Source: Candidatus Omnitrophota bacterium (GTDB taxonomy: Bacteria; Omnitrophota; Omnitrophia; Omnitrophales; Aquincolibacteriaceae). Taken from it: a stretch of DNA of 39,780 nt. The stretch spans positions 1 through 39,780 of the forward strand of contig JAUYMS010000027.1 of assembly GCA_030698625.1 (NCBI GenBank), written 5' to 3'. The notes beneath the pieces are model-generated. The model was not told where the DNA came from. It searched no databases and saw only the letters and a program-made list of their open reading frames with translations. Shown here in pieces: positions 6,796 to 19,206 of this stretch. Position numbers and translations under genes: made by a program. The first letter of the stretch is position 1; every line of letters begins with the position of its first letter.

Positions 6796-7908
6796 TCACT
6801 CAGTGCATCGAGACCATATTATCGACATAGCCGTCGCGCATTTTTCGGCGTCACAGTGTTGTTCCATCCACGTCCGACCCTCATCGATCATTCGACGGCG
6901 TTCATCATGACTGAGACCGATCACGTGTCTCAACGCTGCTGCCAAATCACTTCCCGCCTGTTTTTCATACAGAATGCCCCCACCACTGTCGCTTACAATT
7001 TCAGCCAAACCACCTGAGCCCTGCCATCCAATGGGTAGGGCCCCTGCGACCCATGCCTCTAAAGCCGTCCGTCCCAGTGATTCGGCGTAGGATGGGCAAA
7101 CCACGGCTGTTGCGGTGCGATACAGAGGCAGCACATCATCGATGAAACCTTCAAAAGTTATGAGCTCGTTAAGACCTAACGCCGAAACCAGCTGCTTCAA
7201 ATTTGCAGCATGAGATTCATCGCCGGGACCAGGCGCTCCTAATATTCTGCATCTGATGTGCCAATGCGTCTGTTCAAGTTCTTTAACAGCACGAATGAGA
7301 ATTTCTTGCCCCTTTTCTTTCGCGAGCCGTCCAGCACATATGATTTCCTCAGGATTCTTCGGGTTCTTCTGCAAGATGCGGGATTTTTTGCTTTCAGGCG
7401 ATTTAAACGGATCATAGATCACGCGAATCTCAACGCCCTTCGAATCTGTTTGTTCCTGCAACTTTCGCTTCATAAAACGGCTAACACAAACAAATGCTTT
7501 CAGATTTTTCGGCAACTGTTTGAATGTCGCAAGATATCTAGCATCGCATAAAAGTCGTAAATGGCTTGCCACCGGAAGGCGAAACAGCATGGTGGCGTAA
7601 GTCGCAATTCGCAGATAGCCAGTTTGATTCAGATGTAGGACATGCGGACGAAAAATTGTGATAATTCTCATTAGCTGAATACATGCCACAAGACGCCACA
7701 CCACGCCTCTCAGATGCAGTTTTTGGGGCAGAACAGGATATACGCGACAACCGAGATCGCGCAGCTTTGGCAAAATATCAGCCTTTACAGGACAGCAAAC
7801 CGCGATATTCCAGCGAGTCGCAATGCTTGTCTCGAGAAGCCCTAGGAGAGAGCGCTCTGAGCCCCATAGCGCTCCTGACGGCTCAACAATGAGAACGCGC
7901 TTTACGAT
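6796..7908 (-). CDS. GT4 glycosyltransferase with an apparent non-standard start
   Basis: A GT-B glycosyltransferase. The C-terminal domain is clear: EEIICAGRLAKEKGQEIL, then ESLGRTALEAWVAGALPIG with the E-x7-E motif. The first ATG/GTG/TTG in frame is a TTG at 7773, but starting there would remove the first strand and helix of the acceptor domain. The frame stays open upstream and encodes RVLIVEPSGALWGSERSLLG, which is the usual GT4 N-terminus. No ordinary start exists in that stretch. Candidates are ATC at 7908 or GTA at 7905, behind AAGGGTGGGG and overlapping the upstream gene's TAA. I annotate from 7908. Either a rare start codon is used or a GTGA overlap has mutated to GTAA. Confidence 0.75.
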   Translation of the reverse strand: MVKRVLIVEPSGALWGSERSLLGLLETSIATRWNIAVCCPVKADILPKLRDLGCRVYPVLPQKLHLRGVVWRLVACIQLMRIITIFRPHVLHLNQTGYLRIATYATMLFRLPVASHLRLLCDARYLATFKQLPKNLKAFVCVSRFMKRKLQEQTDSKGVEIRVIYDPFKSPESKKSRILQKNPKNPEEIICAGRLAKEKGQEILIRAVKELEQTHWHIRCRILGAPGPGDESHAANLKQLVSALGLNELITFEGFIDDVLPLYRTATAVVCPSYAESLGRTALEAWVAGALPIGWQGSGGLAEIVSDSGGGILYEKQAGSDLAAALRHVIGLSHDERRRMIDEGRTWMEQHCDAEKCATAMSIIWSRCTE

Positions 7909-9122
7909 CGCCCCACCCTTTTTAAGCTTGTGCCGCCAAGTATGGCGTCTAGGACCGGCCTGTATTGCACATCATAATTGTAGAGGGTAAGGTGAAGCTT
8001 CCGCGCCTTCTCACTCATTGTTCTCCGCCGCTTCTCGTCACCCAATAATCCTTTTACTGCTTCAGCAATGTCTCTTGGCTTCTCTGCGTTGACACTAACA
8101 CCTATACCGTTTAGATCAATTAATTCTTTAACGCCGGGTTCTGCATTGGAAATCTGCGGGACGCCACACGCCATATATTCAAATCTCTTGTTTGATGCAC
8201 CTGCCATATATTTAAAATTCAGCGAAACTGGTTTCGGCATGCCAAAAGCCAGATCGGCATCCACAGTATAGGAAAAAACATTTTTATACGTAAGGTGCCC
8301 AAGAAAGATGACACGTTTAGACACGCCCGCACGTCCCGCGATCACCGCTAATTCCCGTCTAAACGACTCATCTACCCGTCCAAGGAACACCATCACAGCG
8401 TCATCAGGCCACCATCTCACAGATTCAACAATCCGTTCCGCATAATAGTTGCTGCATACAACTCCTTGAAAAAAAACGATGTGTTTTGCATCTACGCCAA
8501 GTTTTCGAAGATCTCTTCTCAGCCGCCCTCGCGGAAGCACTTCGACGCGCCGCGGACAGTTGTTTACGACCTCAATGCGGGCATTTTTTAATGGCGTGAG
8601 ATTCTGCATGAATTCTTTTCTATGCTTGTCTGGAACTACAACTAGATTCGCACCCTGGCTACGTCTGGCGGCCATAATGTCCTGTACACCACTCCACAAT
8701 CGTTCCCGCTCACCGTAGCCCAAGTAATCATGGTAATGATGCACTGTAAATCTGCGCTTATCCAAGTGCCATTTGAGGGCCATAATTCCGCTACTGTCGT
8801 AACCAATACGTGCCTGCATGTCGCTTCCGGAGTCCAATTCCCAAGCCCGTCGCGTAAACACGATATTCCTCCACGCCCTTGCCGCCCTCATGGCCATACC
8901 AGTTGAACGGGATGTGCTCAAGGCCTTCTTAGCACTTTGCCATAATGGTCGGACGAGTCTGACATTACCGTTAAGCTGAGAATCGGGCGCGGCCATACCG
9001 CCGTCAAGCAATATAACGCGCAAGCCAGCTTCCGCAAGAATGTTCGCCTGATTTAACGTAGGGGGGTAGTAATCAGTCCCGGATCGCTGAACTAATAGCA
9101 CGCTCTCCCTAAGCCCGTTCAT
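7902..9122 (-). CDS. glycosyltransferase, GT-B fold (GT4-like)
   Basis: A 406-residue GT-B glycosyltransferase with a divergent N-terminal domain and a recognisable C-terminal donor domain. VMVFLGRVDESFRREL and RVIFLGHLTYKNVFSY are the two Rossmann strands. ASNKRFEYMACGVPQISNAEPG is the nucleotide-sugar-binding segment in place of the classical E-x7-E, and a terminal helix SEKARKLHLTLYNYDVQ closes the fold. The ATG is at 9122. The stop TAA overlaps the apparent start of the next gene. It belongs to the polysaccharide operon by position; the donor is not predictable. Confidence 0.82.
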   Translation of the reverse strand: MNGLRESVLLVQRSGTDYYPPTLNQANILAEAGLRVILLDGGMAAPDSQLNGNVRLVRPLWQSAKKALSTSRSTGMAMRAARAWRNIVFTRRAWELDSGSDMQARIGYDSSGIMALKWHLDKRRFTVHHYHDYLGYGERERLWSGVQDIMAARRSQGANLVVVPDKHRKEFMQNLTPLKNARIEVVNNCPRRVEVLPRGRLRRDLRKLGVDAKHIVFFQGVVCSNYYAERIVESVRWWPDDAVMVFLGRVDESFRRELAVIAGRAGVSKRVIFLGHLTYKNVFSYTVDADLAFGMPKPVSLNFKYMAGASNKRFEYMACGVPQISNAEPGVKELIDLNGIGVSVNAEKPRDIAEAVKGLLGDEKRRRTMSEKARKLHLTLYNYDVQYRPVLDAILGGTSLKRVGRS

Positions 9123-9140
9123 TTATCACGACGCCTGTTG

Positions 9141-10082
9141 TTAGACCTTTCCTTCCGGATAACTCCACTCTTCAAACGATCGCCCAAGTAATCGGCTCAA
9201 CTTCTCCACATCAGCGGTAATCAATTTCATGATGAAATCCATGTTTCGCTCGCTAATCTCTGTCAACGCAGAATAGTCTATTTTTCGACTGACCGCCTGT
9301 CTGTAAATACCCTTGACCCATGCCGGGGTCAGCGAAGACAATCTATTGTAGCCCGGTATCGCACGCAGAACAGCCGTTGGATTTATGAACCGCAATCGTT
9401 TGCCCTCAACCTGATTGTACTTTATTCCTAGAGTTGGAACTTTCCATTGCGTATCAATTCGCAAGAAGCTAAATATTGATTTCATAACTTCATTGGGCTC
9501 CCTACGCAGCGCTTCCGTTGTGATACACAATAATTGGTTTAACGCAAAGCGTTGTACATAATGGAAAAGCTGTCGGTGATAAAGGCTAGTGTATACGAGC
9601 ATCCGAAAATACCGCTGGGCAGGGCTGTTGAGTATGTTCGCGGATGCTATAATGGCATTCAAACTCACACTTGTCGGTATGCGCCCCCAAAACATCTCTT
9701 CTCCATAATGCGACTTAATTCGCTCCACAGGATCGCGCATCAAATATATCAACCTAGCGCCAGGCACGGTCTGGGCCATTAATTCTGCCGCCCTTTTTGA
9801 ATTATCTTCGTGTGTATAACCCGGTGAAGATTCACCGCGGATCGGATATTTTTGGCCCGCCTCGAATTGCTCTTCATACCACGGCAATCCTCTATGCCAA
9901 GTGCCCCACGCTGCGTCGTCAATAAAGAAATGAAGCTCCTTCTGTCGAGTCATAAACACTTCTGGGTGCGTTGCCAAATACCAGTGCAGGCTGGTCGTCG
10001 CACATTTGCTGGCTCCTATGATAATCAGATTTGGCAGCATCTTTGTCTTCTCGTTTTCACTGTGATGATCCTTGTGTATCAT
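9141..10082 (-). CDS. PAPS-dependent carbohydrate sulfotransferase
   Basis: A 313-residue sulfotransferase expected to move sulfate from 3'-phosphoadenylylsulfate to a sugar hydroxyl. The 5'-phosphosulfate loop is IIGASKCATTSLH at about residues 21-33, and the 3'-phosphate site is LIYLMRDPVERIKSHY with its Arg and Ser. ESSPGYTH between them is also typical of the heparan-sulfate-sulfotransferase-like group. The ATG at 10082 overlaps the preceding stop by four bases. An internal ATG at 10040 (residue 15) has GAGAAG close upstream and is a real alternative start. Its presence implies that the surface polymer made here is sulfated. Confidence 0.9.
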   Translation of the reverse strand: MIHKDHHSENEKTKMLPNLIIIGASKCATTSLHWYLATHPEVFMTRQKELHFFIDDAAWGTWHRGLPWYEEQFEAGQKYPIRGESSPGYTHEDNSKRAAELMAQTVPGARLIYLMRDPVERIKSHYGEEMFWGRIPTSVSLNAIIASANILNSPAQRYFRMLVYTSLYHRQLFHYVQRFALNQLLCITTEALRREPNEVMKSIFSFLRIDTQWKVPTLGIKYNQVEGKRLRFINPTAVLRAIPGYNRLSSLTPAWVKGIYRQAVSRKIDYSALTEISERNMDFIMKLITADVEKLSRLLGRSFEEWSYPEGKV

Positions 10083-11023
10083 GGACGATAGACGCTCAAG
10101 TCGGGCATAACGTATTCGCCGGATTCGTCAAGTGGCGCACCTGCATTGCGATCCCTGCGTGGTGTTCCAAAATAGCGGCGCCATGCATCGAGTGGCAATC
10201 CTGATTCGGCAAACCGACGATATGCTCTTTTCCATCTCCCTTTTAGGAAATCCATAAACACAGGTTTGGCGACCAGATAAAGTAGATTCCTCTTCGCCTG
10301 TGTTCTTTCCTCAGATGTTAATGGACAATTATGAGAATCAAGCATTTTGTACATTTGCCCCGGAAGTCTTACCGTATATCCCCATGCATCAGAGCTGCGC
10401 AAGGCTTGGCCGGGATGGGATCGATACCAGTACAGATCGGCGGGTAGCAAAAGACAGTTGAAGCGAGCGCATGCTCCCAGAAAAAAAAGCAGGTCCGAAT
10501 GAGTGCCGAGCGAAGAGAATCCTCCCATCTCAAGCAGCGTCTCGCTGCGAAAGAGCGCATCTGACGGACCGCATCGGCACAATCCAAAACCTAAGAACTC
10601 CCTCTGATATGCCATGCGCGGCGTCAAAAGCATCGGACAAGGCCCCCCTTCCCATCGCACACCGCTTGTTAATGCAAACCCCGCCTGCGGCTCTGCCTTT
10701 AATAACGAATACATCATTGCCAGGCAGTGCGGATACATGATGTCATCAGAATCATGATATTTGATGTAGTCCCCTTTGGCCAGCGTCGCAGCGTAATTGC
10801 GGTTCGGAAACTGGCCAATGTTTTTCTCATTAGAATAGATTCTAACGCGCGAATCGCTTTCGTACTGTCGAGCAACCTCAAGCGAACGGTCCTCTGAGCC
10901 ATCGTCGACAATAATCAATTCGAAGTCTAAGTAAGTTTGTGCCAGCACGCTTTCGATAGCTGCGGGAAGAAATTTTTCTCTGTTATAGACGGTTAACAGG
11001 ACACTGATGACTGGTTCTCTCAC
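10079..11023 (-). CDS. GT2 glycosyltransferase
   Basis: A family 2 glycosyltransferase of 314 residues with a full GT-A core. ISVLLTVYNRE lies at 6-16, LIIVDDGSEDRS at 37-48, the NIGQFPNRN helix start near 68-76, and the metal-binding KYHDSDDIMYP at 88-98. A later acidic DLLFFLG segment is a candidate for the catalytic base region. The C-terminal 80 residues are basic and probably sit on the membrane. It overlaps both neighbours by four bases, so it is translationally coupled to the sulfotransferase downstream and the GT4 gene upstream. Confidence 0.88.
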   Translation of the reverse strand: MREPVISVLLTVYNREKFLPAAIESVLAQTYLDFELIIVDDGSEDRSLEVARQYESDSRVRIYSNEKNIGQFPNRNYAATLAKGDYIKYHDSDDIMYPHCLAMMYSLLKAEPQAGFALTSGVRWEGGPCPMLLTPRMAYQREFLGFGLCRCGPSDALFRSETLLEMGGFSSLGTHSDLLFFLGACARFNCLLLPADLYWYRSHPGQALRSSDAWGYTVRLPGQMYKMLDSHNCPLTSEERTQAKRNLLYLVAKPVFMDFLKGRWKRAYRRFAESGLPLDAWRRYFGTPRRDRNAGAPLDESGEYVMPDLSVYRP

Positions 11024-12288
11024 GAAAGGCCGTGACCCTTTCGAGTTAAGCCATGGGTAGATTCCATATCCGCCGCCATCCGCTCGCCGATAACGTCCCA
11101 GCTGTATTGGGAAACAGCGAGATCGCGGCCTGCTCGCCGAATTGCATTAAATGTCTCGGGCGTTCTGAGAAGTTTGAGGATAGACTGGGCGAACGTCTCA
11201 GCATCGTCTGCAATTAGTATGTTCCGTCCGGGCTCCACGTCGAGTCCCTCTGCACCGATGCTTGTCGAAACAACGGGATTACCCAAAGCCATGGCTTCAA
11301 GAATCTTGAGCCTTGTGCCGCTACCCTGCCGGAGCGGGCAGATTGCTATACCGGCTTTGTAATAGTACGGAACTATGTCTCTGACCTCACCAGCGAACTC
11401 TACCCGGGGATGATTGGCGAGCCGACTAAAATCATCGCGTGATCCGTCCCCACCAACAATAATCAGTTTGATTTCTTTATTTAATTCACACAGTCGCGGC
11501 CACACCGCGCTTCCAAACCACTTGATGCCATTGATATTTGGAAGTGTTTTCAGATTGCCGCAAAACAGGATGTTGCGGCAAGATGACTTATCGGGACGGC
11601 TATCCGCCGATCGCGCGGTTGTATCCACACCATTCGGTACAACATGTATCGGAATAGTATTGTGGCGAGCAAGCTTGGTTCGATCTGTGGCGGAACAGCA
11701 AAAGACAGCGTCTACATGTCGTTGGAGGTTGTGTTCGATTTCACGCAATCGGTGAATCTCCCGCTGTTTTCCCCGCCGCTGCTTATCTGGCAGGTCTTCT
11801 ATATTTTGGCGCATCAGATCATGGTCTACATTGTGCGCGTCTAGAATTCGAACGGCTTTTGAACTCAGCCTCTTAACCAGAGGAGCTGCAAACATAGACT
11901 GTACGTGTTCAAAAAAAACGATGTCCACGCATATCTTCGTCAAGACGTGCCTTATTAAGTGATGAGACCGCACTAACGTTCCCTCAGCCGGGCCCTCCCA
12001 GGATCTTCTCATCCAACGAAACTGCAACCCTGCCCGCAATCTCCGGGGAAACCGATCGAATAGCGAGGGCGGCGGGGGCTGATCAATCGGACTATAAACA
12101 CATACGCTATCAGGCACTCTGTAATCGTCATCTCCGGTACGCAGCTCAGACTCCTTCTGGAACAGAATGGCATGCACTTCATAGAATCGTGCCATCTGTC
12201 TTAAGAGATGATAGCAACGCAATGCTCCCCCTCCCCGCAAGGGAAATAACGGGTATGGGCAAATCGTCAGTATCTTAACTTTGCGCAC
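11020..12288 (-). CDS. GT4 glycosyltransferase, Glyco_trans_1_4 type
   Basis: A 422-residue GT-B glycosyltransferase. The N-terminus reads ILTICPYPLFPLRGGGALR, with the glycine loop, and the linker has HVVPNGVDT. The donor domain carries NILFCGNLKTLPNINGIKW and IAICPLRQGSGTRLKILEAM with its conserved Glu. The GSGTRLKILEAMALGNPVV segment is the form seen in TIGR03087-like transferases associated with exosortase and exopolysaccharide systems. That assignment needs a profile search. It begins 3 bases after the ABC exporter gene. Confidence 0.86.
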   Translation of the reverse strand: MRKVKILTICPYPLFPLRGGGALRCYHLLRQMARFYEVHAILFQKESELRTGDDDYRVPDSVCVYSPIDQPPPPSLFDRFPRRLRAGLQFRWMRRSWEGPAEGTLVRSHHLIRHVLTKICVDIVFFEHVQSMFAAPLVKRLSSKAVRILDAHNVDHDLMRQNIEDLPDKQRRGKQREIHRLREIEHNLQRHVDAVFCCSATDRTKLARHNTIPIHVVPNGVDTTARSADSRPDKSSCRNILFCGNLKTLPNINGIKWFGSAVWPRLCELNKEIKLIIVGGDGSRDDFSRLANHPRVEFAGEVRDIVPYYYKAGIAICPLRQGSGTRLKILEAMALGNPVVSTSIGAEGLDVEPGRNILIADDAETFAQSILKLLRTPETFNAIRRAGRDLAVSQYSWDVIGERMAADMESTHGLTRKGHGLS

Positions 12289-12291
12289 CCC

Positions 12292-14106
12292 TCACACCAT
12301 CTTCTGCTCTGTCCAGGCTTGATAAAACTTCCCCTTCGACTCCAGCAGAGCGGCGGGCGTCCCGCATTCGAGGATCATTCCATTCTCAATATAGATTATT
12401 TTAGCGGCATTCTTGATCGTTGATAGTCGGTGGGCGATGACGATCGTGGTCCTGCCCTTCACAACTTCCTGTACGGCTTCTTGAACGATGCGTTCCGTTT
12501 CCGAATCAAGCGCACTTGTTGCCTCATCTAAAATCAGAATATCGGCATTTTTCAAGAGCGCACGGGCTATGGAGACTCTTTGCTTTTCACCTCCCGACAG
12601 TTGCACCCCGCGATCTCCAATAATCGCATCAAGACCGCTTGGGAGTTCTCTGACATAATTGGTCAGCCTCGCCTGCTCAATAATCCTTGTGAGCCTTTCT
12701 TCACCGACGCCAGGACCAATTCCATATAACAGATTACTTCTCAACGTATCATTAAATAAGTGAATATCCTGGCTGACGATTGCCATGCTTCGTCGTAGGC
12801 TCGCCAGCGTGAATTCTCGTATATCCACACCATCCAGAAGCAAAGTACCCTGCGGCGCATCGTAAAACCGCAAGATCAGATGCGCGATCGTTGTCTTGCC
12901 GGCCCCGGTAGGTCCGACGATCGCAGTCATTTCCCCTCTATTGATTGAAAAACTTAAATTTTTGAGAATTGCTCGTTCTTCCCTGTAGGAAAATGTCAGA
13001 TTTCTAAACTCGATTTTCTCTCCGAGATCAGCGAATTCCCGGCATCCCTCCTGAACTATGAATTCATCGTTGTTCATTAAGATTGCACCTATCTCCCGAA
13101 GGGGTCCCCTGACAGCGGCAATCTCACCTTTGAGATTATTCACGCTTCCAAAGGATGCGGACGCTCGTCTAAGAACAACGAAATAGACCAGATATGCTCC
13201 AATCCCGCTACTCGTCCCGTCTTTTGCGACCAGAAGACCGACGCACAACATCAGTAACAGTATCCCTGACAACATGATAATTTCCTGAGCCGGACTCATG
13301 AAATTCAGCTTCTTATCAATACTGAATTCGAACATTCGTATCATCTGGCTCATTTTTGAAAATTCCCGCTTCTCGAACTTTTCCTGCGTATAGGCCTTCA
13401 CCAACGGAATACATGAAAGAACATTGTGGATTTTCTTTCCCAGCTCCCTCTCTTGATTTGCGTTGTCCTCGGAGGAACGCCTGATCTTTGCGATGACCCA
13501 GTTCAGGGCAAAGTAGAGCACCGGGAATATCATGACGCTAATGATCGTCAGTTTCCATGAGATAGCGCATAACAGCACGATGTATATCACGAGCAGAAAC
13601 AGATAGATTAGAAAATTCTGACATTGCGAAAAGTGATAAGCCACCTGCTGAGTAAATGTTACGAGCACTTGGTGTAAATGACCCGTATTGTATTTATCAA
13701 AAAAAAGTTTTCCGTAACTTAGATATTGCTCAAACAACCGACATCTTGCTCGATGCGTAAAGTCCCTTATGAGGTAAGCCGCGCTAGTTCGCGAACCATA
13801 CTGTAGAAGGACTTTAACCACTGCGGCTGTGAACACCAGGACTATCATTACCCCGTAGAGGATCGAATCACTAGCGGCCATTTTTGGAAACCATCCAAGG
13901 GCCGTGTTGGCGAAAGGCAAACTCCGGATGGCCACGGTATCCTGCCCTAAGATTGCATTCGTCAACGGAATGAGAAGGCCAAGACTGAGGGCCTCGAAAA
14001 GCGCGGCCGCGAGGGCCATAACCGCCGGGATGCTGAAAAGAGCTGGGCGCACAGAAAAGCTCTTAAAAAATTGGTTGATGTTTTGTAGTCTGCGGAAGGT
14101 CTTCAT
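12292..14106 (-). CDS. MsbA-type ABC exporter (fused permease-ATPase)
   Basis: A 604-residue half-transporter with an N-terminal six-helix membrane domain (about residues 20-320) and a C-terminal ATPase. The Walker A loop is GPTGAGKTT at about 396-404, the signature is LSGGEKQ near 500, Walker B is ILILDEATSALD near 519-530, and the switch histidine lies in IAHRLST. The domain order and size are those of MsbA/lipid-A-core and lipid-linked oligosaccharide flippases that act as homodimers in the inner membrane. It sits inside the polysaccharide operon and no Wzx flippase is seen, so it may flip the lipid-linked glycan. Its cargo is inferred from context only. Confidence 0.9.
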   Translation of the reverse strand: MKTFRRLQNINQFFKSFSVRPALFSIPAVMALAAALFEALSLGLLIPLTNAILGQDTVAIRSLPFANTALGWFPKMAASDSILYGVMIVLVFTAAVVKVLLQYGSRTSAAYLIRDFTHRARCRLFEQYLSYGKLFFDKYNTGHLHQVLVTFTQQVAYHFSQCQNFLIYLFLLVIYIVLLCAISWKLTIISVMIFPVLYFALNWVIAKIRRSSEDNANQERELGKKIHNVLSCIPLVKAYTQEKFEKREFSKMSQMIRMFEFSIDKKLNFMSPAQEIIMLSGILLLMLCVGLLVAKDGTSSGIGAYLVYFVVLRRASASFGSVNNLKGEIAAVRGPLREIGAILMNNDEFIVQEGCREFADLGEKIEFRNLTFSYREERAILKNLSFSINRGEMTAIVGPTGAGKTTIAHLILRFYDAPQGTLLLDGVDIREFTLASLRRSMAIVSQDIHLFNDTLRSNLLYGIGPGVGEERLTRIIEQARLTNYVRELPSGLDAIIGDRGVQLSGGEKQRVSIARALLKNADILILDEATSALDSETERIVQEAVQEVVKGRTTIVIAHRLSTIKNAAKIIYIENGMILECGTPAALLESKGKFYQAWTEQKMV

Positions 14107-15200
14107 TTCACTCTCGAAAACTCGTCGACGAAATCAGAAACGCGATGTTGAAACGCAACCACGGAATACTGTTCGAGTTGACCAACCGCCGCGGTGGATC
14201 GCCCGCTAACCGTGTCCGTAATAGCCTTACGAAGAGCCAATGAGTTGCGGGGATCGACAGTGACGCCCAGATTATTCGCCTCCAAAACCTCTTGGCTCGC
14301 GTCTAAGCAGCTGCCGATAGCGGGTACTCCACATGCCAGGGCCTCCAAATAAGTAATCCCAAAGCCCTCACCATAGCCCGGCATGACGTAAGCATTTGCC
14401 AATCTATAGTGGTCTACCTTGCAACTTTCAGATATGTGACCCGCAAATATGACGGTTTTCGCAATCCCCAGTGATCGCGCTTTTATCTCAAGTCGTTTCC
14501 TGTCTGTGCCATCGCCTACAATGAGATACCGCAATTCTTTCATTTCTTTCAACAGGGCTGGCATCTCCTCCAGGACCTCATCGACACCTTTGTAACGCTC
14601 TCGGGCGTCAAGTCGCGCCAAGGTCATGATGACCTTCTTTCCTTCTAAACCGTATTGCCGCAGGAGCTCTGGATCCTTCTTGCCCGGCGTGAAATGCTCA
14701 AGATCAACACAATTTGGAAGAATGTGGGTTCTAATACCGTTGGGGTGCGCCCATGAGGAAAAGCGCTGGAGAGTAAATCGGCTTACAGAAAGCACAGCAC
14801 TTACCCACTTTATCAACAGCTTGCTGATTAAGGGACGCGGAACAGTCCAAGCCTCTATACCGTGTATGACCAATGCTATGGGTGCCCTAAGGCCGAGTAA
14901 GCGGGCAAGAATTGCCAATGGCAGCAAATGCATGTGCCCACATACAATGAGGTCGACATTTTTATGCCTGATCATGTAACGAAGAAACGCAATGACGTAT
15001 ACAATTTTGCTCCCCGCCGATTCACTCCGATAATCAAGCTTAGCGGGCAATGCGCCAACACTTTCTACAATCAGTCTCGGAAATGCAACGACCGTCTCAC
15101 TGTTGTGGCACTCACAGAGTGCAGTTAATAGGTCGCGGTTAAATTTGGCGATGCCTCCGCGCCCGCCGAAGGCATCGGTCACTAAGACCAAGAACCTCAT
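14103..15200 (-). CDS. GT4 glycosyltransferase
   Basis: A 365-residue GT4 enzyme. It opens MRFLVLVTDAFGGRGGIAKF with the glycine loop. The donor domain has KVIMTLARLDARERYKGVDE, YLIVGDGTDRKRLE and the E-x7-E region in GYGEGFGITYLEALACGVP. I set the start at the ATG at 15200 rather than a longer reading. This start overlaps the amidotransferase stop by four bases, as in other junctions here, and begins exactly where family members begin. It probably transfers a hexose during repeat-unit assembly. Confidence 0.9.
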   Translation of the reverse strand: MRFLVLVTDAFGGRGGIAKFNRDLLTALCECHNSETVVAFPRLIVESVGALPAKLDYRSESAGSKIVYVIAFLRYMIRHKNVDLIVCGHMHLLPLAILARLLGLRAPIALVIHGIEAWTVPRPLISKLLIKWVSAVLSVSRFTLQRFSSWAHPNGIRTHILPNCVDLEHFTPGKKDPELLRQYGLEGKKVIMTLARLDARERYKGVDEVLEEMPALLKEMKELRYLIVGDGTDRKRLEIKARSLGIAKTVIFAGHISESCKVDHYRLANAYVMPGYGEGFGITYLEALACGVPAIGSCLDASQEVLEANNLGVTVDPRNSLALRKAITDTVSGRSTAAVGQLEQYSVVAFQHRVSDFVDEFSRVK

Positions 15201-17047
15201 GCGGCGGAGCTGAGCTCCTTGCATACGGCATAGGCCCAGCGGCGCGACCAGTGATTGGTCTCGTGTTTCAGGAGCGCTACATCCTTCCACGCACAGAAGC
15301 GCTCTTTGCCTTGCAGCCAATCAGCCATCGGCAATGAAAAACCGGTTTTGGCTCGATTCGTTATTTCATCTGGAAGTGGCTGCTCCGGTGCTTGCGCCAA
15401 ATCTTCTTTCGCTGCGATTTTCTGCTGACGGATGACGGGGCCAGCCATGCGCTTTAGGAATTCAAAGTCGACATAGGGTGTCCGGATCTCCACGGAATGG
15501 GCCATGCCGGCCCAGTCAGCATCGCGCAGGAGTTGGTTCCTCATATAGAGAGAGGCCTCACGCACCGCGATCCGGCTGTAAGGGGTTTTTAACCCGGGCT
15601 TGATAAAGCCGTTGAATCCGGCCAATGAAGAAAAGTGCTTGAGACCTTCAGCGGCCATGTCGGGCTTCATTACCTTGGGAAGTTCCCATGGCATAAAGAG
15701 GCCCCTCTTTAGAAAGTAGGCCCCGGCGTAAGTGCCGCCGAATTTCACCATTCCCAACGTTTTAGGATGAATGGAGGGGATCAGCATACGGACCAGCGAA
15801 CACGCGCCCGCAAATGCGCCTCCGAGAAGGGGGACGTGGGAGGGAATCCTCATCGCCGAAACGAGTGATGGAATCTGCTGAAAGGACGGGTACCCGCCGA
15901 ACAGTTCGTCTCCTCCGAGGCCCGACAGAGCAACTTTGAGACCCTGCTCGGCTGCCATTTTGCTAATGAAGTAGGTATTGAGGCCGTCAATTGTGGGCTG
16001 GTCCATAGCCTCCAGGACCTTTTCGAGATCCTGCTCAAACTCACGTCTCGTCAGGACCTTTTCGACATGCCTTGTTCCATAGCGCTCGCTGAGCATTCGC
16101 GCCAGGGGCGCTTCGTCATGCTCTGTATTACGGAACTCTTCAAAGCTAAGGGTCATGGTCCGAAGGGGTTGACTGGATTCCTTTGCTGCCATCGCCACGA
16201 GAGCTCCCGAATCAATTCCGGCCGACAGAAATACACCCACCGGGACATCGGAGACAAGATGATGTTTAATTGAATCGCGTAAAGCGCCCCGTAGTCTCAA
16301 ATGCAGGGGGTCTTCTATATAGCGGTTTAACCGCCTGTTCTCGGCATTCTTGAAGACTTCTTCGATTGATGCGTATTCTTCAGCGTCAGAAATGCCCCCT
16401 TCGGTCACGCGCATAAGATGGCCTGCAGGAAGCGCGCGAATGCTTTCGTAAATCGTATAAGGTTCCGGCACGCTGCCCCAGAGAAAGAAACCGGTTACAC
16501 CCGCGGGGCTCTGGGTCTTGGAAACCTTCCCTCCCGCGATGAGCCCCTTGACCGATGACGCGACCCTGACCATATTGCCGTCGTCCGCATAATAAAGCGG
16601 TTTGATCCCGTATGGATCCCGCGCCAGAAGCATGGTTCGGGATTTCTCGTCCCAGAGCACAAATGAGAACATGCCGCGTAATTTTCGTAAAGCTTCTGTG
16701 CCGTACTTTGCATATAACTGAAGAATCACTTCGGTATCGGAATCTGAGTTAAAGGTACATCCCTGTCTTATTAAATCTTCCCGTAGTTCTCGGTAATTGT
16801 AGATTTCGCCGTTGTAGCTAATAACAAGAGTCCCATCATGACTCTTCATGGGCTGTGTCCCACGCTCTGAGAGATCAATGATGGAAAGACGCCGATGCCC
16901 TAACCCGACTCTTCCGTCACTGGCATACCATTCCCCCGAGCCGTCCGGTCCTCGTCTTGTCATGTGATCCCGAATTCGGCGCAGTTCATCCCGGTCTACG
17001 CCGGAACTACCGGCACCATAAGAAAACATGCCGACTACACCGCACAT
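15197..17047 (-). CDS. asnB: asparagine synthase-type glutamine amidotransferase
   Basis: A 616-residue class II amidotransferase. Processing of the ATG at 17047 would expose Cys2 (MCGVVGMFSYG), the nucleophile that releases ammonia from glutamine. RRGPDG and SYNGEIYN complete the N-terminal Ntn domain. The synthetase domain has the PP-loop VGVFLSAGIDSGAL at about 268-281 and ALSGLGGDELFGGYP. Such enzymes make asparagine, or amidate uronic acids in polysaccharide loci. This length and context resemble exosortase-associated amidotransferases (TIGR03108-like), so sugar amidation is the likelier job here. The start was moved to the Cys2-yielding ATG; it lies 1 base after the epimerase stop. Confidence 0.88.
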   Translation of the reverse strand: MCGVVGMFSYGAGSSGVDRDELRRIRDHMTRRGPDGSGEWYASDGRVGLGHRRLSIIDLSERGTQPMKSHDGTLVISYNGEIYNYRELREDLIRQGCTFNSDSDTEVILQLYAKYGTEALRKLRGMFSFVLWDEKSRTMLLARDPYGIKPLYYADDGNMVRVASSVKGLIAGGKVSKTQSPAGVTGFFLWGSVPEPYTIYESIRALPAGHLMRVTEGGISDAEEYASIEEVFKNAENRRLNRYIEDPLHLRLRGALRDSIKHHLVSDVPVGVFLSAGIDSGALVAMAAKESSQPLRTMTLSFEEFRNTEHDEAPLARMLSERYGTRHVEKVLTRREFEQDLEKVLEAMDQPTIDGLNTYFISKMAAEQGLKVALSGLGGDELFGGYPSFQQIPSLVSAMRIPSHVPLLGGAFAGACSLVRMLIPSIHPKTLGMVKFGGTYAGAYFLKRGLFMPWELPKVMKPDMAAEGLKHFSSLAGFNGFIKPGLKTPYSRIAVREASLYMRNQLLRDADWAGMAHSVEIRTPYVDFEFLKRMAGPVIRQQKIAAKEDLAQAPEQPLPDEITNRAKTGFSLPMADWLQGKERFCAWKDVALLKHETNHWSRRWAYAVCKELSSAA

Positions 17048-17048
17048 G

Positions 17049-18026
17049 TCAGCCGAGTTGCTCCCGCACTTGCTCTTCAATCCAACCATAGGTTTTCATG
17101 AGACCCTCTTCCAAGGAAATCGCCGGTTCCCATTTGAGGGTTTTTCGAAGTAGCGTATTGTCCGAATTGCGGCCGCGTACACCCTGCGGACCTTCAATAT
17201 GTTTTATTTTTATCTCAAAGCCTGCGATCTTTGCGATCATGGCGGCGAGCTCATTAATACTCACCATACGATCCTGACCGAGGTTTAGCGGATCATGGAA
17301 ATCGGAACGCATGAGCTTATAGATGCCGATCACGCAATCATCGATATAACAAAAGGAACGCGTTTGCTCTCCATCACCCCATATTTCAATTACGGGATTC
17401 TTGGTGAGCTTTGCGGTTGCAATCTTGCGGCAAAGTGCCGCCGGCGCCTTTTCTCGGCCTCCATCCCACGTGCCCCTGGGACCGAAGATATTATGGAACC
17501 GCACAATCCGTGTTTCCAGTCCGTAGTCCTCGCGATAATGGGTGCACAAACGCTCCGTAACGAGCTTCTCCCAACCATAGGCATCTTGCGGCATGGCCGG
17601 ATAGGCATCGTCTTCCTTCAATGGAGTCACGTTGGCATCGGTCTGTTTGTATTCGGGGTAGATGCAGGCCGAAGACGTATAGAAATATCTCTTAGCGCCG
17701 TTTTCACGGGCGGCATCAAGCGTATGAATATTGATCAAGGAGTTGTTATGAAGAATCTGCGCATGGTTGCCGGAAATAAACCCCATGCCGCCCATGTCCG
17801 CAGCAAAGGCGTAAACTTCTTCGATGCCTTCGGTCGCCTTGAGACAATTCTCCCAGCGCCGTAAATCCAGGAGAGCAAACTCATCAGCCCGAGATTTCTC
17901 GAACTCGGGCTCTTTGATATCGACTCCACGGACCCAGTAGCCTTTATCAACAAGATAACTGGCCATATGGTGGCCGATAAAACCCCCGGCCCCAGTGACC
18001 AAGACTCGTTTTTTTGCGCCAGCCAT
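17049..18026 (-). CDS. gme: GDP-mannose 3,5-epimerase
   Basis: A 325-residue short-chain dehydrogenase/epimerase that closely matches plant GDP-D-mannose 3,5-epimerase, which makes GDP-L-galactose and GDP-L-gulose. The NAD loop is TGAGGFIG at 11-18. Family-specific blocks are AADMGGMGFI (75-84), SSACIYPEYKQ with catalytic Cys121, the YxxxK pair Tyr150/Lys154 in DAYGWEKL, RFHNIFGPRGTWDGGREKAP with catalytic Lys193, and GDGEQTRSF. All residues known to matter in the plant enzyme are present. The ATG at 18026 has AAGGGG six bases upstream. It is the first sugar gene after the antiterminator and leader, and points to an L-sugar in the polymer. Confidence 0.92.
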   Translation of the reverse strand: MAGAKKRVLVTGAGGFIGHHMASYLVDKGYWVRGVDIKEPEFEKSRADEFALLDLRRWENCLKATEGIEEVYAFAADMGGMGFISGNHAQILHNNSLINIHTLDAARENGAKRYFYTSSACIYPEYKQTDANVTPLKEDDAYPAMPQDAYGWEKLVTERLCTHYREDYGLETRIVRFHNIFGPRGTWDGGREKAPAALCRKIATAKLTKNPVIEIWGDGEQTRSFCYIDDCVIGIYKLMRSDFHDPLNLGQDRMVSINELAAMIAKIAGFEIKIKHIEGPQGVRGRNSDNTLLRKTLKWEPAISLEEGLMKTYGWIEEQVREQLG

Positions 18027-18065
18027 GATTTTCCCCTTACACAGCTTCGCCCTCTCGGTCACAGA

Positions 18066-18143
18066 CGGGTGCTCCCGCCTCGACCTACGAGGACAGAGTT
18101 CTCACGTTAGCACACAAGCTCGGACCTAGGACCTGGGCTTGTG
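18066..18143 (-). promoter_or_regulatory. three-hairpin RNA leader between the antiterminator and the sugar genes
   Basis: The 119-base gap between the antiterminator stop and the epimerase start can fold, on the transcribed strand, into three successive hairpins. The first has CACAAGC/GCTTGTG arms (18137-18143 with 18113-18119) around a 17-base loop and begins 3 bases after the stop codon. The second is CCTCG-TAGGT-CGAGG (18078-18092) and the third, directly adjacent, is CGGG-AGCA-CCCG (18066-18077). None is followed by a T-run, so these are not ordinary terminators. Position and structure suggest a loading or pause site for the NusG paralogue, or an RNA-processing site. The base pairing is seen; the role is inferred. 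Confidence 0.45.
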
Positions 18144-18145
18144 GC

Positions 18146-18691
18146 TTATAAAGGTTCTACGTTGGCACTGTCTACTTCTACGGACGCCGACTGCGCGAGC
18201 AATTCCAACGAGATCACGAGTCGACAGTGCCTGCCCTTTTGAACAATGAATCCTTCGATCCCTTTAAAAGGTCCTGAGCGGATATACACACGCCGGCCTT
18301 CTTTTAAGTACGGGTAGGGGTCGAGGGGGATGTCTTCTTCCACAAACTTCTTTATCGCTAAGAGTTCTTTTTCGGGGACTTCCATCGGCCGGGCCTTGGT
18401 CGGGCCGACAAAGCTCACGACACCTACGGTATTCATGATGGTCCAGCGGTCTATAAGGGCAGCATGAGTGAAGATATAACCCTTGAACAAGGGTTCTTCG
18501 ATGATTTTCTTGCGGTCAGACCATCGGCGGTTGAACTTCCGCAGCGGCAGAAATGTCTCGATGCCTCGTTTAGCCAGTTCTCTCTGCACAACCTTCTCGT
18601 GCCGGCTACGCGTATAAAGTGCAAACCAATGAGGAATTGTGCTCGGCGCGACCAGTAAAGAATCAGTCGCAGCCCTAGCTTGCGACAACAT
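18146..18691 (-). CDS. NusG/UpxY-family transcription antiterminator
   Basis: A 181-residue specialised NusG paralogue. The NGN domain begins at HWFALYTRSRHEKVVQREL (about 21-39), continues through IETFLPLRKFNRRWSDRKK and PLFKGYIFTHA, and contacts RNA polymerase. A KOW domain follows at about 128-155 (LKEGRRVYIRSGPFKGIEGF). UpxY, RfaH and LoaP-type proteins of this size keep polymerase going through long polysaccharide operons and are usually the first or second gene, as here. Housekeeping NusG is excluded by gene context: no secE or rplK/rplA nearby. It lies 26 bases after the small DNA-binding protein gene and directly before the hairpin leader. Confidence 0.88.
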   Translation of the reverse strand: MLSQARAATDSLLVAPSTIPHWFALYTRSRHEKVVQRELAKRGIETFLPLRKFNRRWSDRKKIIEEPLFKGYIFTHAALIDRWTIMNTVGVVSFVGPTKARPMEVPEKELLAIKKFVEEDIPLDPYPYLKEGRRVYIRSGPFKGIEGFIVQKGRHCRLVISLELLAQSASVEVDSANVEPL

Positions 18692-18717: not shown

Positions 18718-18927
18718 TTATTTGTTCATTCGGTCTAGAAGCCAAGCATCCAGCACATCTTTCTTAAAACGCCATTGCCCCCCAATTTTGGTGGCCGGAA
18801 TCTCACCCTTTTTCAAAAGCCTGTATATCGTAACTAGGTGAAAACCCAAATACTTAGCCGCCTCCTTGGGCGTCATAATCTGCGTTCGCTCTGGCCTCTG
18901 ACCTTGAGGTCTTTGTGGTTCCATCAT
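18718..18927 (-). CDS. excisionase-fold (HTH_17) DNA-binding protein, copy 1
   Basis: A 69-residue protein with a single winged helix-turn-helix of the MerR/excisionase type. MTPKEAAKYLGFHLVTIYRL at 18-37 forms the two-helix unit, and IPATKIGGQWRFKKDVLDAW provides the wing and last helix. A basic, proline- and glutamine-rich 17-residue tail comes first. It heads the polysaccharide operon, behind a near-consensus promoter, with AGGGA 7 bases before ATG. It is almost identical to the product at 20923-21132, which precedes a sugar aminotransferase. No integrase or phage gene is near, so I infer a transcription regulator, possibly autoregulatory, rather than a recombination factor. Confidence 0.85.
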   Translation of the reverse strand: MMEPQRPQGQRPERTQIMTPKEAAKYLGFHLVTIYRLLKKGEIPATKIGGQWRFKKDVLDAWLLDRMNK

Positions 18928-18985: not shown

Positions 18986-19024
18986 ATAATACATCTATAA
19001 TTATAAGGAGTCAAGTATTGCTAT
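18986..19024 (-). promoter_or_regulatory. promoter of the polysaccharide operon with conserved upstream block
   Basis: On the minus strand the -35 is TTGACT (19009-19014) and the -10 is TATTAT (18986-18991), separated by exactly 17 bases. This predicts transcription from about 18979 and a leader of about 50 bases. The -35 is embedded in ATAGCAATACTTGACT (19009-19024). That block differs by two bases from the one in front of the paralogous gene at 21193-21208. Conservation beyond the hexamer suggests a protein-binding site. Confidence 0.75.
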
Positions 19025-19206
19025 CTATTTTTATATATGTTATAAATTGGCTAAATTCTTTATTTCTGCCTACTTATGGCCAATTTCACGAACTTGAGAA
19101 AAATGTTGAATGGGCCCTCGAATTCGGCTAGTCTCAAGTCGAATTGGAATTTTTGGTATCCATAATTTGTTTTACTGACAAAGGTTAAGTCGAAAGGATA
19201 AACTGT

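Follow-up and report, generated by a model that had tools for sequence, protein, structure and literature searches.

Introduction

Specialised NusG paralogues have few described recruitment signals in the literature that we found, much of it accessible in part: ops for RfaH and the dfn hairpin for LoaP. According to the accessible text of the eLife RfaH paper (PMC5995543), the ops sequence is a consensus pause in which positions 11-12 are TG; its non-template strand forms a hairpin closed by the C3:G8 pair around the loop G4-A7, and the RfaH contact positions are H20, R23, Q24, and R73 (T6 pocket). For LoaP, the available portion of the source (PMC12691694) reports that an RNA hairpin in the leader (dfn/mln) is needed for the NusG paralogue, and the site is described as a UNCG-type hairpin of antibiotic operons with a terminator after it. 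The UpxY proteins of Bacteroides act within 5' leaders (PMC7819879, available in part), and the accessible parts of the UpxY literature that we found name no recruitment element. The epsC/EAR RNA, in the part of the report available (PMC2864571), is a structured leader RNA of exopolysaccharide operons and is linked to antitermination.

Here we describe a conserved leader element from a Candidatus Omnitrophota bacterium and compare it with these systems. The window is the whole stretch of DNA that was analysed, 39,780 nucleotides of contig JAUYMS010000027.1 (assembly GCA_030698625.1). Like ops, which lies within JUMPstart leaders, the element is a putative leader signal for a NusG paralogue before polysaccharide operons, and it ends in a 12-nt block with a GGC start and a TG end, as in the accessible description of ops. 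Set against that description, the loop of the new block is one base shorter and has no flipped T6, and a conserved RNA hairpin lies upstream of the block; no GGCGGTAGCGTG-like ops sequence was found in the element. With the LoaP site it has in common a leader RNA hairpin, and the paralogue model also matches the NusG-RNA complex 8f5g. The apical loops of the element, however, vary in sequence and length without a UNCG loop hairpin, the conserved parts are its tail and 3' strand, and the window leader gave no terminator when scanned. The protein family and the gene position at the head of a polysaccharide operon are those of Bacteroides UpxY, but the leader action described in the available text lies upstream of upxY, whereas the new element usually follows the paralogue gene and is found at unlinked operons as well. 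It resembles the epsC/EAR RNA, as far as that account was accessible, in being a structured leader RNA at exopolysaccharide operons, and differs in that no Rfam match was found here.

Organization of the locus

On the minus strand of the window, a small helix-turn-helix gene is followed by the NusG-like gene, a gap, the epimerase gene, and polysaccharide genes, and the Pfam families of the downstream genes place the paralogue gene in a polysaccharide operon. The genes are as follows.

18718..18927, minus strand: small helix-turn-helix gene 5' of the paralogue (open reading frame)
18146..18691, minus strand: UpxY-type NusG paralogue, 181 amino acids, NGN domain and predicted KOW beta-barrel (Pfam NusG, NCBIfam NF033644, AF2 model)
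17049..18026, minus strand: gene for an NAD-dependent epimerase, the first one 3' of the element (Pfam Epimerase; ATG at 18026)
7902..17089, minus strand: downstream polysaccharide genes, namely asparagine synthase-like, glycosyltransferases, ABC exporter, and sulfotransferase (Pfam)

The NusG-like gene ends at 18146 and the next ATG is at 18026-18024, leaving a gap of 119 bases (18145-18027), the length that the first-pass annotation of this DNA had given. The sequence AAGGGGAA is located at 18037-18030, ahead of the epimerase ATG.

The helix-turn-helix gene is one that we take to be excisionase-like. A near-alike sequence was seen 5' of the paralogue in most Omnitrophota relatives, and the two genes are perhaps a conserved regulator pair. 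Two overlapping sigma-70-like promoter matches were located 5' of this gene at 18986-19027 (minus strand); the promoter scan gave more matches than the average shuffle and is weak evidence for promoters there.

A second, better-scoring NusG protein is encoded on another contig (G000:C13), so the window gene is a paralogue. The paralogue (P0001) matched the NCBIfam UpxY model NF033644 with 134 bits (cut-off 100), as did 10 of 10 A1 members at E<=0.001. It scored below the cut-offs of the RfaH models TIGR01955 (73.6 against 144.5 bits) and NF006534 (55.5 against 124) and of the LoaP model NF033641 (72 against 125 bits). An AlphaFold model with a mean pLDDT of 76 showed an NGN domain and the beta strands of a KOW domain. 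For the C-terminal domain, which in RfaH is alpha-helical and autoinhibited, AF2 thus predicts strands, at a block-mean pLDDT of only 50-75. The nearest solved structures to the model were NusG, RfaH, and the NusG-RNA complex. The paralogue differs at most RfaH contact positions: where RfaH has H20, R23, Q24, and R73, the paralogue consensus has E, K, K, and A in an alignment read by eye.

The leader carries a conserved hairpin and tail

The whole gap folded at -48.5 kcal/mol against -38.5 +/- 3.8 kcal/mol for shuffles (z -2.65) and was better than 200 of 200 shuffles. The first-pass annotation had picked out 18066-18143 as the hairpin-rich interval; this piece alone folded no better than shuffles (z -0.56, with 59 of 200 folding as well), because the 3' arm of the main hairpin is cut off. 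Of the three hairpins without T-runs described there, the first is present and no T-run follows it, and the minimum-energy fold contains two hairpins. The first hairpin (18143-18113) has no counterpart in eight relatives, and we rejected it as the functional site.

Comparison of nine Omnitrophota loci showed spacers of 52-174 nt from stop codon to core, unrelated in sequence. In eight homologues that have different genes downstream, a GACTGAGAGGGCGAAGCTGTG-like block recurs 50-170 nt 3' of the stop codon, its window copy being 18060-18040, and in the relatives it is preceded by a strand able to pair with it. The conserved structure lies at 18094-18049 with the block extending to 18040, largely outside 18066-18143. 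It consists of a hairpin (18094-18049) running into the invariant block GAGAGGGCGAAGCTGTG (18056-18040). Its parts, with the first hairpin, are listed below.

18113..18143, minus strand: first hairpin, CACAAGC (18143-18137) with GCTTGTG (18119-18113); folds, local to this genome
18038..18096, minus strand: conserved leader element, full covariance-model match (R1 and R2)
18090..18094, minus strand: P1 5' strand GTCCT, pairs with 18053-18049
18079..18085, minus strand: P2 5' strand GGTCGAG, partner strand 18063-18057; this is P2 in the family structure
18064..18078, minus strand: variable apical hairpin (P3) region; sequence differs among copies, pairing often kept
18057..18063, minus strand: P2 3' strand TGTGACC (family TGTRACY), partner of the P2 5' strand
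18049..18053, minus strand: P1 3' strand AGGGC, partner of the P1 5' strand
18040..18051, minus strand: 3' block of 12 nt, GGCGAAGCTGTG, a putative pause site (T-1 at 18041, G+1 at 18040)

We used two covariance models, R1 built from 14 copies without the window copy and R2 from 61 copies including it. The window copy matched R1 with 30.7 bits (E 7.8e-5 over 452 kb) and R2 with 38.3 bits (E 1.3e-7 in its own genome); it ends 13 nt ahead of the start codon and carries GCGAAGC at 18050-18044, inside the 12-nt block.

Searches against Rfam 15, JUMPstart RF01707 included, gave no match at gathering in the window, none at E<=5 in 18000-18200, and none at E<=0.1 in 11 other element-bearing loci. A literature search found no description of this element, with most subscription papers lying outside its coverage.

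Other origins of the element were considered and rejected. An intrinsic terminator was dropped, there being no terminator-like site at the element. For phage cargo, no exact TGTRACYGAGAGGGCGRAGC match was present in viral contigs. The core can be read as VTERAEQ with wobble-like changes, as a coding origin would have it, yet the first codon is GTA or GGG in many copies, and the frame runs into a stop upstream in 43 of 43 copies (after 2-33 codons) and downstream within 20 codons in 29 of 43.

Covariation of the paired strands

The stems show compensatory base changes, both in the 61 copies used for training and in 36 that later searches added. In the training copies, 82.8% of paired cells were standard pairs, and 65 double-change cells were counted against 29.5 +/- 4.2 in shuffles. 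The covariation score was 0.247, compared with 0.180 +/- 0.008 in shuffles and at most 0.107 when partners were slid by 1-3 columns. The 36 later copies, which include L190, probably from the same contig as the training locus L071, had 82.0% standard pairs, 40 double-change cells against 15.1 +/- 3.4 in shuffles, and a score of 0.242 (slid versions at most 0.096). Since both alignments were fitted to the model structure, the slid control weighs most. The variable apical stem and upper P2 account for most of the compensation; the 3' strand is near-fixed in its lower part.

The tail has a pause-like layout

Among the 61 copies, G-10 was present in 61, C-9 in 59, A-6 in 60, G-5 in 61, C-4 in 60, T-1 in 59, and G+1 in 45, and positions -3, -2, +2, and +3 varied. 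The motif GCGNAGC occurred in 57 of 61 copies and in 33 of 35 of the later set, which showed the same pattern with T-1 in 35 of 35. The conservation of the block is partly built in, because the first scan of loci used it; a fixed T-1 beside variable -2 and -3 is not built in by that scan. The tail carries the flanks of a consensus pause (G-10, T-1, G+1) with a small GC-stem loop between them. GNA and GNNA loops closed by G-C pairs are very stable DNA mini-hairpins in the part of the report available (PMC4686876), and on that description GC-GRA-GC of the tail is of the GNA kind. By analogy, the 3' block is laid out like a consensus pause that holds a GNA DNA mini-hairpin, from which we infer pausing.

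Letter similarity to ops was also scored and was dropped as evidence, since it was not above chance: the Nitrospirota-type consensus agrees at 8 of 12 positions (reached by 2,813 of 20,000 shuffles) and the window copy at 7 of 12 (11,562 of 20,000). The parallel with ops in pause and mini-hairpin is therefore put forward as a hypothesis.

The element accompanies the paralogue across phyla

Ten aligned paralogues, used as the search query, recovered 62 named paralogue loci, from Omnitrophota, Nitrospirae, Nitrospinota, Dadabacteria, Deltaproteobacteria, Acidobacteria, Planctomycetes, and one Alistipes. With R2, 38 of the 62 loci yielded 41 copies at E<=9e-4, every one on the coding strand; the sole minus-strand match (E 0.026) overlaps a true copy. 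R2 training includes many of these 41 copies, so the count is a census and not an independent test. The same element stands by other UpxY-like genes and before other polysaccharide operons, and in most paralogue loci it sits between the regulator and the structural genes. No nearby copy was found in 24 of the 62 loci, in two of which the contig ends at the gene. Element-bearing genomes belong to Omnitrophota, Nitrospirota, Nitrospinota, Dadabacteria, the Deltaproteobacteria-labelled, Acidobacteria, and the Bacteroidota group.

Genome-wide searches gave the following results. Among the 58 nearest genomes, R1 matched at E<=1e-3 in 9 of 13 with a strong paralogue match, and 45 of 45 nearest Omnitrophota genomes without one had no R1 match below E 0.15. 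In 384 Omnitrophota genomes, five loci at E<=1e-3 were new to the model; four have a paralogue open reading frame alongside, and in the fifth genome the paralogue is on another contig and the element lies 16 nt 5' of an ABC-transporter gene. The Nitrospirota-group set comprised 395 genomes from the phylum of G067 (a Nitrospirae record), with a strong paralogue match defined as E<=1e-35. Here the element was found at E<=1e-4 in 84 of 181 genomes with the strong paralogue versus 13 of 214 without (Fisher p 1.7e-21, relatedness ignored), and at E<=0.01 in 140 of 181 versus 25 of 214 (p 1.8e-42, relatedness likewise ignored); 97 of the 181 thus have no element at E<=1e-4, and 41 have none even at E<=0.01. 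In the phylum of a Desulfuromonadales genome, R2 matched at E<=1e-4 in 22 of 247 genomes, and four of six new loci fetched carry a paralogue open reading frame. Hardly any matches were expected in the phylum of an Alistipes genome, where 6 of 247 genomes had one; two of the six follow a paralogue open reading frame and precede an asparagine-synthase gene (the second judged by its first residues).

In the Nitrospirota group, the element of loci L202-L221 lies directly 5' of the paralogue gene, and 17 of these 20 loci match R2. This reduced form keeps the core TGTAAGTGAGAGGGCGAAGCTGTG and has lost the long hairpin, which makes the tail the common core; by eye, many of these copies could form a short hairpin of the ACT-GTA-AGT type. 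One Acidobacteria genome has the same form. The full-form hairpin is thus not needed everywhere, and the long hairpin may be an aid to the tail.

As a separate observation, L226 and L227 carry near-identical elements followed by a gene that starts like the gene after the L012 element (PAPS-reductase-like, by eye), in different phyla. This likeness may be a sign that the cassette as a whole moved by horizontal transfer.

Solitary copies

Several genomes carry two or more copies of the element, and in G061, G078, G082, and G548 elements are present though the listed paralogue locus has none. For the count of solitary copies, 20 regions were picked from 51 search rows, less L161 and L165, and the rest were fetched automatically; L161, inside a 1,814-aa stop-free stretch, was left out. 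Of 33 solitary copies, 18 have as their first downstream gene one for polysaccharide, nucleotide-sugar, asparagine-synthase, or export functions; 17 of these were assigned by Pfam and L157 from its likeness to L156. Copies placed in this way are what a factor acting in trans would be expected to have. The other 15 precede other or unannotated genes: no family (L147), Uma2-like by reading (L151), CbiM (L154), E1 dehydrogenase (L160), nucleotidyltransferases (L162, L228), AbiEii (L164), APS kinase (L200), Phd (L225), cytidylyltransferase-like (L233), PorV (L234), WYL (L237), and a first gene that was absent or not scanned (L163, L197, L230).

In the Omnitrophota- and Nitrospirota-side searches, 22 of 24 solitary copies lie in stop-free stretches of at most 154 aa. 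Weak control matches to the model (L110, L113-L115, L172, L173, L175-L179, L181-L185) fell in stop-free stretches of at least 262 aa in 13 of 16 cases and were treated as chance; L177, intergenic and ahead of an epimerase gene, may be a real copy.

Three further observations concern single copies. L154 (G082:C37) is a good copy 26 nt 5' of the CbiM cobalt-uptake gene, outside the polysaccharide theme. The L153 and L162 copies follow similar small genes (MNN/MNS...ITQR.LS.RL.IALGL.N.Y.KRL), which, read by eye, are likely winged-helix regulators. The genome of the window has a second, weak R2 match at G000:C50:82233-82284 (E 0.037), which may be a trans target or chance.

Discussion

The element recurs on the same strand, with compensating changes, near relatives of the paralogue and before sugar-coat operons, and for this reason we read it as probably the docking site by which the paralogue family finds its operons. 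A structured, strand-fixed, paralogue-linked element that also stands at distant like operons fits an expected recruitment site, and we hold with good though incomplete confidence, from sequence comparison, that at the start of polysaccharide operons it brings the neighbouring UpxY-type NusG paralogue to RNA polymerase. The first-pass annotation had suggested a recruitment site in a leader hairpin. Stem covariation and the occurrence of the same element at other UpxY-like genes and operons support the putative site, and the leader element is structured; it lies in the 3' half of the gap, not in the first hairpin, and looks like a pause signal plus a hairpin. By analogy, the best explanation is a different element that would function like ops or the LoaP dfn hairpin, yet is a member of neither.

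In the mechanism that we propose, RNA polymerase would pause at the 3' end of the element, at T-1/G+1 (18041/18040). The nascent RNA would then have its P2/P3 hairpin at the exit channel, and in the bubble the non-template strand would display the GCGRAGC segment. The paralogue may recognise the RNA hairpin, the non-template segment, or both, and we hold the RNA reading and the DNA reading each less firmly than recruitment itself. Once bound, it would displace the housekeeping NusG and stay on, and the long operon would be read to its end by antitermination.

The alternative that survives best, though we consider it unlikely, is a ligand-sensing riboswitch or a leader for another protein, perhaps translational, in which case the paralogue would share the operons without touching the element. 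Such a leader would fit a conserved structured RNA near start codons, and in the window AAGGGGAA and the ATG come directly after the element. However, the distance from the element to the next start varies from overlapping to more than 400 nt, the genome co-occurrence with the paralogue is strong, and adjacency recurred in later matches. The structure is one plain hairpin without a multi-branched pocket, and neither a terminator nor an anti-RBS switch was seen, which argues against a riboswitch.

A regulatory pause or attenuator worked by general factors (NusA, NusG, Rho), with the paralogue loading elsewhere, would account for a conserved 3' end laid out like a consensus pause, but it leaves unexplained why genomes without the paralogue mostly have no element, and we regard it as quite improbable. 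Least probable of all is an RNase processing site cutting the regulator from the structural mRNA, the alternative in the first-pass annotation, which matches the position between regulator and structural genes in most paralogue loci but is made less likely by elements before operons without an upstream regulator gene and, in one group, before the regulator itself, and by unpaired 3' letters conserved like the stem up to T-1, needless for a hairpin-cleaving enzyme.

Within the docking-site reading, we suggest tentatively, as an idea with perhaps one chance in a few of being right, that the element is a widespread composite signal for UpxY-type NusG paralogues. One stretch would be used both as a covarying RNA hairpin, LoaP-like, and as a non-template GNA mini-hairpin in a consensus pause, ops-like, in cis and in trans, and would be a possible source of DNA-only and RNA-only modes. 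With a model that recognises the site across phyla, the targets of these regulators can be predicted from sequence, and a defined sequence becomes available for in vitro transcription. The same model offers a way to ask whether recruitment read from DNA and recruitment read from RNA arose independently. A practical side benefit is that the element flags polysaccharide operons under this kind of control where genome annotation is poor.
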